This document shows, in pieces, positions 1,528 through 29,847 of a stretch of DNA of 54,357 nucleotides. The notes beneath the pieces were generated by a model that saw nothing but the letters and a program-made list of their open reading frames with translations, was not told the origin of the DNA and ran no database searches. A program made the translations under genes and the position numbers. Positions within the stretch are counted from its first letter, which is position 1. Every line of letters begins with the position of its first letter. Source of the DNA: Syntrophales bacterium (GTDB lineage: Bacteria > Desulfobacterota > Syntrophia > Syntrophales > UBA2210); contig JAQULO010000008.1 in NCBI GenBank assembly GCA_028718565.1, positions 1-54,357 on the forward strand, given 5' to 3'.

Positions 1528-2169
1528 ATGTCTAGGAAAACAGCTGCATATATTGCTCTCTTCCTTGCCGTTGCGGGTTTGATCGGCTTGGGCGTATCGA
1601 CCCGGGTCTCGGACGGGGTTGTAAGATATCTGAAGGCGATGACGATCTCCGAGAATGTGATCCCGGATGGAAGCTCCTTTGATATTGTCTACGTCCTCGG
1701 TGGAACTCAACCAAGCCTGCAGGAAAAGTACGAACGCCTGGGGTCCCTCTGCCGTACTATCAAGTATCAGAAAATCCTTATCCTTGATAGACTCGGGATT
1801 ACCGAGTATCGTAAAGAGGCGGGGCGAAATCTTACCAACAATGAGTGGTCTCTCATGCAGCTGGAACGGCGGGGCATCAAAAAGCAGGACGTGGAGCTGG
1901 TATCGATGACCGATGGGTATTTCGGTACGCTCAGTGAGGCGAGGGCGGTGACAGGGTTGATGGGGGAAAGGGGATACCGCACGGCACTTCTCATTACGGC
2001 TCCTCACCACACGGCACGGGTTAAGAGGAGTTTTGGCCGGATGCTGAAATATAACCGCGGGACGTGTTATGTTACAAGCTCTGAAGAAGAGGCGGCATTC
2101 GGAGAACTGCTTATGGAAAACCTCAAACTGATGGTTTATACTCTTATCTTATTACCGATGCAGGATTGA
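1528..2169 (+). CDS. DUF218/YdcF-like membrane-anchored protein
   Basis: This 213-residue protein starts with one hydrophobic segment (about residues 7-25) that should anchor it in the inner membrane. The DUF218 core follows: strand DIVYVLGG near 52-59, a NNEW segment, and APHHTARVKRSF near 170, which corresponds to the late conserved His/Arg segment of YdcF/SanA-type proteins. The biochemical role of the family is poorly defined, with links to envelope polysaccharide and S-adenosylmethionine binding. The stop at 2167-2169 overlaps the proposed start of the exosortase gene, so the two are probably translationally coupled. No specific function can be assigned. Confidence 0.65.
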   Translation: MSRKTAAYIALFLAVAGLIGLGVSTRVSDGVVRYLKAMTISENVIPDGSSFDIVYVLGGTQPSLQEKYERLGSLCRTIKYQKILILDRLGITEYRKEAGRNLTNNEWSLMQLERRGIKKQDVELVSMTDGYFGTLSEARAVTGLMGERGYRTALLITAPHHTARVKRSFGRMLKYNRGTCYVTSSEEEAAFGELLMENLKLMVYTLILLPMQD

Positions 2170-3095
2170 AGGGAATACACAACACCGATTCAATGTGGTC
2201 ATTTAAAAATCTGAAGAAGATTGATAAGAAAACCCTCTGCCGAACAGTGAAGGAACAGATGCCCTTCGCCTCCTTTGTCCTTGCAGCAATGATCCTCTTC
2301 GTCGCCTGTTACCATTCGACACTTGCCTGGATGTATGGGCGGTATATCAGCGCTGATTCTTATTATTCACACGGGTTTTTAGTTCCTTTTGTGACGGGCT
2401 ACCTTATCTGGCGCGAGCGGGGACGGCTCAGAGACAAAGACCCCGGTTTTTCATGGCTGGGGCTCTTCGTCATGGCCATCGCGCTTTTGATACACGTATT
2501 CGGAACAATTATCTATGTCTTCTCCGTATCCGGTTTTTCAATCTTTCTGTTGATACTGGGGTTGTCCCTCTTTCTTTTCGGGGGGAGGGTAACACGGATC
2601 ATCCTCTTTCCGCTGGTATTTACGATATTCATGTTCCCGCTCCCGTCCGCCTTTATCGGTGTTGTTTCTTTCCCCTTGAAGCTGTTCGTGGCGAAGAGCG
2701 GAGCCTGGATCGCGGGCCTGATGGGAATACCCGTCTATCTCGAGGGTTTTTATATTACCATCCCGGCCGGTAGCCTTCTGGTCGGTAATCCCTGTAGTGG
2801 GTTGCGCTCGTTGATTACCTTTCTGGCGCTCGGTTCGATCCTCGCATACTTCAGCCCAACTTCTCTGTGGAGGAGAGGGCTGATCATTTTTCTTTCCGTA
2901 CCCACGGCCATCGTGTCGAATGTCATCAGGGTCCCTACGCTGATAACCATCTCTCATTACTGGGGTCTGGAGGCGGCAATGCCCGGAGGTTTCTGGCACG
3001 ATGCGTCAGGTATCATGGTATTTGTCATTGGTTTTTTCCTTCTCATATGTTTTACAAGGATGCTGGAATGGGGATCAACAGGAAAAAGCACATAA
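2166..3095 (+). CDS. xrtA: Exosortase (XrtA/EpsH-type membrane transpeptidase)
   Basis: This polytopic membrane protein of about 300 residues carries the three exosortase active-site elements: Cys in GNPCSGLRS (about residue 210), Arg in VSNVIR (about 255) and His in FWHDASG (about 278). YYSHGFLVPF near the N-terminus is also a family hallmark. Exosortases are thought to cleave C-terminal PEP-CTERM sorting signals and attach the protein to an envelope component. The frame opens at TTG 2166, overlapping the upstream stop. ATG 2193 (MWSFKN) is an equally plausible start, and neither has a strong ribosome binding site. EpsI overlaps its 3' end. No PEP-CTERM substrate was recognised in this window. 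Confidence 0.9.
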   Translation: MKGIHNTDSMWSFKNLKKIDKKTLCRTVKEQMPFASFVLAAMILFVACYHSTLAWMYGRYISADSYYSHGFLVPFVTGYLIWRERGRLRDKDPGFSWLGLFVMAIALLIHVFGTIIYVFSVSGFSIFLLILGLSLFLFGGRVTRIILFPLVFTIFMFPLPSAFIGVVSFPLKLFVAKSGAWIAGLMGIPVYLEGFYITIPAGSLLVGNPCSGLRSLITFLALGSILAYFSPTSLWRRGLIIFLSVPTAIVSNVIRVPTLITISHYWGLEAAMPGGFWHDASGIMVFVIGFFLLICFTRMLEWGSTGKST

Positions 3096-26372: not shown

Positions 26373-27686
26373 CTAATCTGCCAACTGGAAGGGCCGTGAG
26401 GCGGAAAGGGTCAGCATGACCCTGTTATCCACGTATTCATCACCTGGATCATCGCTCATCCGGTTCAGATAGGAATATTCCAGACCGAGGGAGTACCAGC
26501 GGAGAAATCTCATCCTAAAACCACATCGCCCCCTGTAGGTTTCATCCTCCGTATCGGACAGGTATCTGTTCTTTCGGTAAGAGGCGCCAGCGTAAGCATT
26601 TATATTCTGCATGACCGTATAATCCACATTACCGGCAATGGTCCAATACCGCGTATAATCCCTTTGCTCAGCATCCAAATAATCCTCATCCCATCCGCCT
26701 CTGCCCATCAGCGAGACGGCCCCTCGCTCAAACTTACTTTCCAGGGTTGCCCCGTAGCTCACGTGCCCCGTATCGTTTTCTGTTCCATATCCGTTCGGCT
26801 TGTAGTACCCCGTGTCCAGCGACAGCGATGTCCGGGAGGAGAGCCCGTGAGTTATCCCTACAGATCCCTCGTGAACCTGGCGATCTTTTCTCGATGCCTT
26901 TTCGAAGTCCCTTCTCGTATACCCGTAACCGATGTACCCCGTTGTGCGCGGATTAAAGCGGTACAAATAGCGAATATCGACTTCGTGACCATCAAAATTA
27001 TCACCCTCGGGGGCACCGTCATTACGCTCAAATTCGGTCCTGGTAAAGCGGTACTTCAGATCCGTACCGTTGTGTACATCGAACCAATAAATCAAGCCGG
27101 CATACGGACCATGCTCAATAGTGTCATCCAGGGAGGGGTCCTCGTTTTCCAAGAGTTCATGTCTGTATCCGGCCGTCAGTAAGTCCTCGGGACCAAATTG
27201 ATACGACAGAGCGGCGTCAGCCACATTTCTCTCATAGGTATACAGGGTATGCCTCGATCTCCGCCTCTTTTCGTAGTCCGCAAAGGACTCCTCTGTAGCC
27301 TCTTCCGATTTGAGATAATATTCCTCCAGGTCAACCCTCCAGGATTCTCCAAATTTCTGCCAGAGGTTCAGCCGGGCGTTGTGTCTGGTCGTATCGTTGT
27401 TCGTATATTCATGATATTTGACAAAGGTAGGCGAGTAGTAAAGGTTCAGGCCGTTATTGCTTGAATAGAGGTCGAATCCGATCCCCGGCGAGACGGTCGT
27501 TATATAATCCGATTTTCTATCGTCCTTGTCTAAAAAAATATTATCATCATAGGTCTCGCCGACGGTTATCATCGGTACAATTTCAATACGGCCCTTCCCC
27601 ATGGCGGGAGGAGACACCAAGACACCCACCATCACAGCTATCACGACAAAAAAGGCAGCAAACTTTTGTTGATGGCAGGCAGTCAT
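26373..27686 (-). CDS. Outer-membrane beta-barrel protein of the exopolysaccharide locus
   Basis: This 437-residue protein has an N-terminal signal peptide (hydrophobic core FFVVIAVMVGVLV, then SPPAMG). ITVGETYDDNIFLDKDDRKS follows, a start typical of the EpsL/TIGR03016-like outer-membrane proteins seen with exosortase A loci (from memory). The rest is alternating amphipathic strands rich in Tyr, Arg and Asp (FDVHNGTDLKYRFTRTEFE, TTGYIGYGYTRRDFE), and the last strand RVMLTLSASRPFQLAD resembles a barrel end. It probably helps the polymer cross the outer membrane. Its ATG overlaps the stop of the Wzz gene as ATGA. Confidence 0.83.
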   Translation of the reverse strand: MTACHQQKFAAFFVVIAVMVGVLVSPPAMGKGRIEIVPMITVGETYDDNIFLDKDDRKSDYITTVSPGIGFDLYSSNNGLNLYYSPTFVKYHEYTNNDTTRHNARLNLWQKFGESWRVDLEEYYLKSEEATEESFADYEKRRRSRHTLYTYERNVADAALSYQFGPEDLLTAGYRHELLENEDPSLDDTIEHGPYAGLIYWFDVHNGTDLKYRFTRTEFERNDGAPEGDNFDGHEVDIRYLYRFNPRTTGYIGYGYTRRDFEKASRKDRQVHEGSVGITHGLSSRTSLSLDTGYYKPNGYGTENDTGHVSYGATLESKFERGAVSLMGRGGWDEDYLDAEQRDYTRYWTIAGNVDYTVMQNINAYAGASYRKNRYLSDTEDETYRGRCGFRMRFLRWYSLGLEYSYLNRMSDDPGDEYVDNRVMLTLSASRPFQLAD

Positions 27687-28753
27687 AGTTTTATCCTTGG
27701 AAGATGACCCAGCACGGGGAGGTGACTGACATCCACTATGTCGACTTCGTGGCGAATGGTCCCTTGGGTAAACTCCGGCAGCAACGCCGCCCCTATCCCC
27801 AGCATCAGCCCCCCGAGAATAATTATGATCATAAGCCGTATTTCCGCCTTCCTCGAAGGGGCGACAGGAAACGCAGGAGGACTTATTACCCTAATATTCC
27901 CCACTATTCCTGCTTCCTTTACCTGACTTGTAAAATAGACCCCATCCAACTCCGCAAATCGTTCTTTATCCATCTCTACTCGGGCTTGGAGCCGCTTCAT
28001 CTGCAATTGGATATTGATATCGCGAGCCTCGTCAAAATCACCCGGAATCTGGTACTGTTTTTTATAATCGAAGACCGCCTGTTCTGAATCCTGGAACTCC
28101 TGGTAGGCGTGGTTTCTCTGCTTTTCCAGAAAATCCCTTTCGGAACTAACCGCCTTCTTGTTGTCCTCAAGATTGGACGCGAGACAGACATCGATATAGC
28201 TTCTGGCCAAGACCAAGGCAACATCCCTGTCGGTGCTCTTTGCTGTAATCCAGATCAAGGCTGAGGTGGGGGCACTTGTGATTTCCACCCTCTTTTGTAT
28301 CTCCGTTAGGAGACTGACCTCCAGCAAGGGTTGCGACACAGGTTTCGACCTCACGCCAAACAACCTTAGCGCCCCTGCCTTGATCTGGGGGAAGATATCC
28401 ACCTCGGCTCGTAAATTACTCTTGGCTTTTTCGGGTAAAATTTTTAAGACTTCCGCGGCAAAAAAGGAACTCTTTATTTTTTCCTCCTCGGTCGTAACGT
28501 ACAACCCTGGCACCCTTCCCGTACCCAGAGTTTCCTGCTTGGCCTGGGAGATCGCGGAACGGGGTTCCTCAACCAGGAGGGTTGCCTGGCTGACAAACTT
28601 GGGCTTGATAAGGGGAGAAAGAAGAGTCAGCGCGAGAAAAATGCCAACAAGAAAAAAGATGAGCACCATCCATTTTCTCTCCAAGATCGGGACACCATAC
28701 TTAGATGTATAAATAGAAATATCAAACTGCCTGTCTCTCGCCTTCTCGCTCAT
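27683..28753 (-). CDS. Wzz-type chain-length determinant protein
   Basis: This 356-residue protein has the two-helix Wzz layout: an N-terminal helix (about 28-50, KWMVLIFFLVGIFLALTLL), a long periplasmic domain with a coiled-coil stretch (KQRNHAYQEFQDSEQAVFDY), and a C-terminal helix (about 304-325) preceded by the conserved proline-rich PPAFPVAPSRK. It sets polymer length and links polymerase to export. The kinase domain sometimes fused to such proteins is absent. A separate BY-kinase-like protein is encoded 25 bases upstream, so the pair matches split Wzc systems. It overlaps the barrel protein gene by four bases. Confidence 0.87.
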   Translation of the reverse strand: MSEKARDRQFDISIYTSKYGVPILERKWMVLIFFLVGIFLALTLLSPLIKPKFVSQATLLVEEPRSAISQAKQETLGTGRVPGLYVTTEEEKIKSSFFAAEVLKILPEKAKSNLRAEVDIFPQIKAGALRLFGVRSKPVSQPLLEVSLLTEIQKRVEITSAPTSALIWITAKSTDRDVALVLARSYIDVCLASNLEDNKKAVSSERDFLEKQRNHAYQEFQDSEQAVFDYKKQYQIPGDFDEARDINIQLQMKRLQARVEMDKERFAELDGVYFTSQVKEAGIVGNIRVISPPAFPVAPSRKAEIRLMIIIILGGLMLGIGAALLPEFTQGTIRHEVDIVDVSHLPVLGHLPRIKL

Positions 28754-28778: not shown

Positions 28779-29411
28779 CTAGAATTGGTGGTTATACACT
28801 ATTCCCCTGATTTTACTGCTCCCCTGAGGAATAGCGGCGATAGCATTTTCCAGCTCGGCCTTTGTCGTCCTTTTGTCCTGAACAACAATGACCACCATAT
28901 CACAAATGAGACTCAGGAGAGCAGGATCTACATTGCTCCTGTTCTGAACGAGCAACGGAGAAGTATCAAACAGTATCAGATCAAACTCTTCTTTCATTTC
29001 ACGGATCAGGTTATCCAGAAGTGAACGGTTCAGAAAAGGGGAGATGTCCGTGTCGACCCGGCCAGCCGACATTATCTGCAATCCCTTGAGATTAGTATCC
29101 CTTAATGCCTCTTTCCAGGGCAGAAGCCCCAACGCAACCGCGCTGAACCCTTTTCCTATTTCAAGCCCAAAGGAGAGGTGGAGCTGTGGCCGACGCATGT
29201 TCAGGTCTACCAGCAACACCCTCATGGCACCGAAGCGGGCTATATTGTAACCCAGCACAGAGACCAGAAACGTGCTGCCGACATCGTCGTGGGGACTGGC
29301 AACCATAACGGTCTTGAGATTTAGCTTTTGGAGTTCGCCCACTACCCCTTCCCGGATCCTATGGACTTCCGCATAATCGAAGGCCTCGTTGACAAGTCTA
29401 CTTGGATTCAA
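28779..29411 (-). CDS. CpsD/BY-kinase-like protein with degenerate Walker A
   Basis: This 210-residue protein has the fold of CpsD/CapB/Wzc cytoplasmic kinases, but its nucleotide site is altered. The expected P-loop of the GEGKST type reads SPHDDVGSTF (about 39-48), with no lysine. Walker A' reads VLLVDLNMRRP, where the second Asp of the usual DADLRRP is Asn. Walker B LILFDTSP keeps its Asp. No tyrosine-rich tail is seen; the protein ends GIVYNHQF. The start is TTG at 29411 with AGGTGA eight to nine bases upstream, and an in-frame stop four codons further up. It may be a pseudokinase regulator of the Wzz protein. Kinase activity is doubtful. Confidence 0.78.
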   Translation of the reverse strand: MNPSRLVNEAFDYAEVHRIREGVVGELQKLNLKTVMVASPHDDVGSTFLVSVLGYNIARFGAMRVLLVDLNMRRPQLHLSFGLEIGKGFSAVALGLLPWKEALRDTNLKGLQIMSAGRVDTDISPFLNRSLLDNLIREMKEEFDLILFDTSPLLVQNRSNVDPALLSLICDMVVIVVQDKRTTKAELENAIAAIPQGSSKIRGIVYNHQF

Positions 29412-29847
29412 TGTACACGCTCACCTTTGCGAAAAATGTTCTATCCCCAAACAACAACTCCGCAACCTCCAAGATAGGGAGGTGCCGCCCCTCCTGCTTT
29501 GATAGGCCACCAACCTCGACTCACACTATCATTAATCTTCGATCATGAACAGATGCGGTCATAATAACAGAAAAAAAAATGAAAAGTAAAGCAATAAATC
29601 AATTTAAAAAGTTCACCCTGATTTCAACCCCATTTCCGCAAAGAAGCGACCGCAACATGTAAGAGAATACTTCAAGCATCCGGCGGTCGCATATGCAGCA
29701 TAATGGATATATTCAAACACCGGAGCAATATGAATGAGATTGTACGTTTGATGCCCCGCTGCTTGCGGCGGGACAGTTCATTCCGCCAAACGTATCAGCG
29801 TCACTGCGTACTGCGACTACATCAAAGATTGATCAAGCCGATTAATC
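29412..29847. other. Divergent intergenic region with two hairpins
   Basis: This 436-base gap separates the leftward CpsD-like operon from the rightward acyl-CoA synthetase gene and must contain promoters for both. No convincing -35/-10 pair was found by eye. GCGACCG (29646-29652) pairs perfectly with CGGTCGC (29684-29690) across 31 bases. A second nested palindrome lies at 29743-29794 and is listed separately. An A-rich tract sits near 29570-29610. No ORF with protein-like composition was recognised. Confidence 0.5.
29743..29794. repeat. Nested palindromic element (REP-like)
   Basis: TACGTTTG (29743-29750) is the exact reverse complement of CAAACGTA (29787-29794). Inside it, CCCCGC (29754-29759) faces GCGG-c-GGG (29765-29772) around TGCTT. 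The combination of an outer 8-bp arm and an inner GC hairpin looks like a repetitive extragenic palindrome or a structured leader. Copy number in the genome cannot be judged here. Confidence 0.4.

Follow-up and report, generated by a model that had tools for sequence, protein, structure and literature searches.

Polysaccharide co-polymerases of the PCP-2 type run, in the standard model, on cycles of tyrosine phosphorylation. The locus analyzed here raises the question of what a protein of the BY-kinase family does beside such a co-polymerase (PCP) when the residues of catalysis are missing. It lies in a window, i.e. the whole stretch of DNA that was analyzed, of 54,357 nucleotides from a Syntrophales bacterium (contig JAQULO010000008.1, assembly GCA_028718565.1). 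A preliminary description had located at 28779-29411 a CpsD-like gene in an intact operon with Wzz and an outer-membrane protein, and had proposed either a pseudokinase or a new nucleotide-site variant. The coordinates are correct and the strand is minus. The BY-pseudokinase gene comes first, with its TTG start at 29411, and is followed by the PCP gene after a gap of 25 bases and by the gene of a beta-barrel outer-membrane protein (OMP), which overlaps the PCP gene by 4 bases. This spacing, and the conservation of both the TTG start and the Shine-Dalgarno-like sequence in the orthologue of UBA6078, agree with an intact operon. The features discussed below are the following:

28779..29411, minus strand: stand-alone BY-pseudokinase resembling CpsD and the Wzc kinase domain, 210 aa, TTG start (open reading frame and translation; TIGR03018 and TIGR01007 below cut-off; fold match 3la6)
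29421..29428, minus strand: Shine-Dalgarno-like sequence AAAGGTGA upstream of the pseudokinase start, kept in the UBA6078 orthologue
29265..29297, minus strand: degenerate Walker A, SPHDDVGSTFL, residues 39-49, with Ser46 (29274-29276) at the lysine position and G45 and T47 retained
29187..29219, minus strand: Walker A', VLLVDLNMRRP, residues 65-75, with DxD changed to DxN
28956..28982, minus strand: intact Walker B, DLILFDTSP, residues 144-152
28923..28943, minus strand: insertion region typical of the clade, NRSNVDP (residues 157-163), following Walker B
27683..28753, minus strand: Wzz/PCP-2b-type polysaccharide co-polymerase without kinase domain, 356 aa (GNVR above its cut-off, Wzz slightly below)
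27686..27763, minus strand: cytoplasmic C-terminal tail of the PCP, ...GTIRHEVDIVDVSHLPVLGHLPRIKL, candidate docking tail for the pseudokinase (pattern conserved in partner PCPs)
26373..27686, minus strand: outer-membrane beta-barrel protein, BBP2_2, related to TIGR03016/EpsL
2166..3095, plus strand: exosortase of a nearby polysaccharide locus, outside the operon (PF09721, 2.6e-65; TIGR02602 over cut-off)

The pseudokinase was placed in the BY-kinase family, below the cut-offs, on the basis of its NCBIfam scores, the top model being TIGR03018 (XrtA-associated tyrosine autokinase) with 88 bits (cut-off 230.65), followed by TIGR01007 with 86.6 bits (cut-off 108.05). Sequence matches in the PDB (phmmer) and a fold search both returned the kinase domains of CapB, BceF, Wzc, Etk and VpsO. 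The top Foldseek matches were BY-kinases (E 6e-10), the best PDB fold match being the Wzc kinase domain 3la6, on a predicted structure of modest confidence (pLDDT 61) made from few sequences. Among the features of an active BY-kinase, Walker B is present in the window protein, and the Walker A lysine, the DxD motif and the tyrosine cluster are absent. It shares with BY-pseudokinases of the EcpK/HfsB type the BY-kinase fold, a loss of the catalytic residues and tyrosine tail that is kept among orthologues, and a PCP-2 partner without kinase domain.

The protein reads ...VMVASPHDDVGSTFLV... LLVDLNMRRP ... DLILFDTSPLL ... and ends in IVYNHQF. The P-loop had previously been read as DDVGST in place of GEGKST, which would put a glycine at the lysine position. 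The loop is indeed altered, but this register is one residue off and was ruled out by three gapless alignments to real BY-kinases, in which GEGKST pairs with DVGSTF; G45 before the lysine and T47 after it are therefore retained and the lysine itself is Ser46, not Gly45. This retention of the remaining Mg site had been masked by the one-residue shift. The replacement of DxD (DAD) by DLN and the lack of a tyrosine cluster, both pointed out earlier, were found again, the single tyrosine near the C-terminus being Y206. The oligomerisation motif of BY-kinases, EX2RX2R, compares with AEVHRIRE, in which one arginine is in register and the glutamate and the other arginine are displaced by one residue.

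Was the altered loop unique to this sequence? The same trio of genes occurs in a genome of the same genus, UBA6078, a Syntrophaceae MAG (L031/L070), where the pseudokinase is 87% identical and its loop, PHDDAGITFL, also lacks the lysine (isoleucine). Between the two genomes, the lowest dN/dS is that of the pseudokinase (0.07), the PCP having 0.11 and the OMP barrel 0.14, so that the pseudokinase, which is under purifying selection, is the best conserved of the trio. Profile searches of 155 genomes of the order and 395 of the phylum revealed five further members with the loops SPHDDAGNT (G508), SPYDNTGNT (G400), SPYDNTGSS (G481), GAHAGAGTT (G154) and GAHEGAGTT (G111). The seven members come from six families and form one clade (support 100/99 in a 58-sequence tree). 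None of them has the lysine, its position being taken by S, I, N, N, S, T and T, and all display the asparagine of DxN, retain G45, T47 (Ser in one), D69 and D149, and have no or one tyrosine in the C-terminal tail. The loss is thus shared by the clade rather than particular to the window. All seven also carry an N[RI]xNV[DN] insertion after Walker B, where canonical BY-kinases have a four-residue gap. A similar insertion, NRRM(T/M)DP, is present in two lysine-bearing DxN homologues (L064 and L081) which group together near the clade; an order of the losses is no more than suggested by this tree, the root of which is arbitrary.

Other lysine-less proteins were encountered. L079, L080, L082, L084 and L096 form a second, separate BY-kinase-like group without the lysine (EGA/EGT/EGN), also with DxN, some stand-alone and some fused to a PCP, and sharing the terminal tail RR(K/R)..IP..(A/I/V)Y..L. 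Within the same order, six BY-kinase-like proteins (L006, L011, L014, L017, L051, L055) have an arginine for the Walker A lysine (EGRT), and L051 and L055, the two inspected, are devoid of a tyrosine tail. Genome G052, which we take to be Syntrophus aciditrophicus, encodes two BY-kinase-like proteins that retain the lysine and DxD and lack the tyrosine tail, and therefore represent a different branch. Kinship with the S. aciditrophicus pair, given as a pseudokinase pair in PMC12004946, was rejected on this basis.

The clade is tightly linked to its co-polymerase. Homologues of the window PCP (E<=1e-15) were found in 4 of the 155 genomes of the order, exactly the four that harbor the pseudokinase clade, and always adjacent to it; adjacency extends to three more families and holds for 7/7 genomes overall. 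The PCP of the window ends about 26 residues past its last hydrophobic stretch (356 aa), and the tail pattern IR[HN]..D, then P..G..P, is common to the seven partner PCPs, including the neighboring PCP genes of G508, G400 and G481. G154 and G111 belong to two different families; in both, a GT2 glycosyltransferase carries the pseudokinase domain as its C-terminal part and the next gene again codes for a PCP. A limited literature search found no report of such a fusion:

L068:7665-9422: GT2-pseudokinase fusion (PF00535/PF13632 + AAA_31/BcsQ)
L069:2-1447: GT2-pseudokinase fusion (PF00535/PF13632 + AAA_31/BcsQ)

The pseudokinases of G508, G400 and G481 have an N-terminal extension with short repeats, in which a motif resembling [DN]P[FIL].G[IV][DN][LMF] is present two or three times (L105:1980-3107, L106:8988-10211 and L107:8691-9833). 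A ParA-type ATPase with an intact KGGVGKT P-loop precedes the pseudokinase in G508 and G481 (L105:1250-2089 and L107:9935-10798) and perhaps positions the export machine. In two families, the vicinity of the pseudokinase operon also encodes OmpA-like proteins that contain thrombospondin type 3-like repeats (L070:4524-7176 and L105:4400-6968), accompanied in G508 by a weakly DUF4156-like lipoprotein.

In the window, an exosortase polysaccharide locus (2166-23704, plus strand) is convergent to the pseudokinase operon and contains the exosortase, EpsI, a flippase, a PEP_O_lig-like ligase and many glycosyltransferases. The association with XrtA-type loci implied by the preliminary description is not general, because an exosortase is encoded in only 4/7 clade genomes, this one included, and a strict association is not kept outside the genus. 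The TIGR03018 autokinase accordingly resembles the window protein as its top-scoring model and by the exosortase locus near both members of this genus, but differs from it by the large gap to the cut-off, by the lysine and DxD that the window protein has lost, and by the three clade genomes without exosortase.

A kinase acting on the protein in trans was searched for in the host genome, a draft 98.4% complete, from the assembly of which an absent gene could be missing. No canonical BY-kinase was found there, the other TIGR01007 matches being ParA, Mrp, FlhG and MinD-like proteins, and trans-phosphorylation by another BY-kinase was rejected on this account. No phosphatase of the usual two families, low-molecular-weight tyrosine phosphatase (LMW-PTP) and CpsB/CapC, was detected in this genome. 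Another contig codes for an OPX protein. Canonical BY-kinases were likewise not found in G508 and G400 at E<=1e-20, and one is present elsewhere in the genome in 4/7 clade genomes.

Altogether, we favor, with a probability of about 70%, the view that the BY-pseudokinase forms the base of a bipartite PCP-2 on the cytoplasmic side, serving as a phosphorylation-free scaffold for the adjacent Wzz/PCP. The protein would bind the C-terminal tail of the neighboring PCP and, by touching the PCP ring directly, would hold or guide it with no need for tyrosine phosphorylation. Both halves of the initial proposal survive; the pseudokinase half is favored because the lysine, the tyrosine tail and the second Asp of DxD are all missing, because no other BY-kinase or usual phosphatase was found in the genome, and because EcpK/EpsV offers an analogue. 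Kinase activity is thus presumably absent. Docking of the PCP tail is probable by analogy with CapAB and with EcpK/EpsV (PMC12004946), and together with HfsB/HfsA the latter provides a precedent for a BY-pseudokinase scaffold in a bipartite PCP-2 (PMC12004946). Mutation of K540 in Wzc abolishes phosphorylation and the K540M variant forms a uniform octamer (PMC8285477), which suggests how the ring could be kept stable by a partner devoid of the lysine; stabilisation of the PCP ring may be expected from this analogy, and an effect on chain length could follow. Two observations count against this view: G45, T47, D69 and D149 are retained, unlike in EcpK, and some clade genomes (the 4/7 above) do possess a canonical BY-kinase.

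Because of these four retained residues the pure scaffold is not the sole reading, and the nucleotide-site half of the initial proposal stays. The main rival, which we consider possible though clearly less probable, holds that the protein does not phosphorylate but binds Mg-ADP/ATP through G45, T47, D69 and D149, nucleotide binding switching the PCP ring between states. Throughout the clade these positions are kept, whereas the lysine position varies freely. K540 keeps Wzc open by way of D642, and the closed state is reached when D642 leaves K540, pairs with T541 and coordinates Mg (PMC8517177); the counterparts of D642 and T541 are both retained in the window protein, and the structure of Wzc K540M was solved with MgADP (PMC11986026). 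Moreover, DxN occurs in 13/13 lysine-less sequences against 7/45 others (Fisher P 2e-8, relatedness ignored, in a homologue sample skewed to sequences resembling the query), and lysine loss together with DxN appears at no fewer than three places in the tree. However, the retained residues may serve folding, and EcpK functions without any Walker motif. In its extended form, this rival would make the clade a nucleotide-gated, phosphorylation-free PCP switch in which the Mg ligands are kept, the lysine was lost jointly with the second Asp of DxD in several lineages, and the GT2 fusion couples repeat-unit synthesis to polymerisation, a proposal we regard as equally tentative.

It is very unlikely that the protein is an active kinase or ATPase whose catalytic residue has moved or is of an unusual kind. 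This reading could draw on the intact Walker B and first Asp of Walker A' and on K33, present in 6/7 members, but K33 stands before strand beta-1, by homology distant from the phosphates, and there is neither a tyrosine tail as target nor a detected phosphatase of the two usual families, DxN being moreover invariant in the clade. Slightly less plausible still is a regulatory partner that would form a heteromeric ring with an active, canonical BY-kinase; such a kinase is available in 4/7 genomes, but the searches above found none in the genome of the window or in G508 and G400. A pseudogene or sequencing error, to which the rarity of the gene (missing in the third genome of the genus and in most of the order) might point, can be dismissed given the intact frame, the conserved start and Shine-Dalgarno, the low dN/dS and the same loss in seven genomes.

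The scaffold reading connects the clade to a kind of protein already known, of which the first experimental description is recent, the BY-pseudokinase EcpK having been published in 2025 (PMC12004946). EcpK (MXAN_7447) and EpsV of Myxococcus xanthus (PMC12004946), compared here by description, likewise associate a stand-alone BY-kinase fold devoid of catalytic residues and tyrosine tail with a PCP-2 lacking a kinase domain; EcpK has however lost all three Walker motifs and bears a basic C-terminal helix, whereas the window protein retains Walker B, G45 and T47, has no such extension and is encoded beside its PCP. HfsB/HfsA of the Caulobacter holdfast (PMC12004946), also compared by description, show the same association of a stand-alone pseudokinase and a PCP-2 without kinase domain, but are alphaproteobacterial. 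CapB/CapA of Staphylococcus, a PCP-2b system, are similarly bipartite, with the PCP C-terminal tail next to the kinase, but CapB is active and has the Walker A lysine, DxD and tyrosine tail. What is new is a distinct clade with its own signature, the retention of the Mg site, genomes without a detected canonical kinase, and two GT2-fused members.

For PCP-2 co-polymerases, this clade would constitute a further, well-conserved case of phosphorylation-free operation and, as some of its genomes apparently lack any canonical BY-kinase, it makes the phosphorylation-free model directly testable. Its partial loss, with the lysine and one Asp gone and the Mg ligands kept, separates the absence of catalysis from the absence of nucleotide, a distinction that EcpK does not allow because none of its motifs is left. 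Finally, the fusion to GT2 is a structural hint at the partner that may be brought to the PCP by the pseudokinase.
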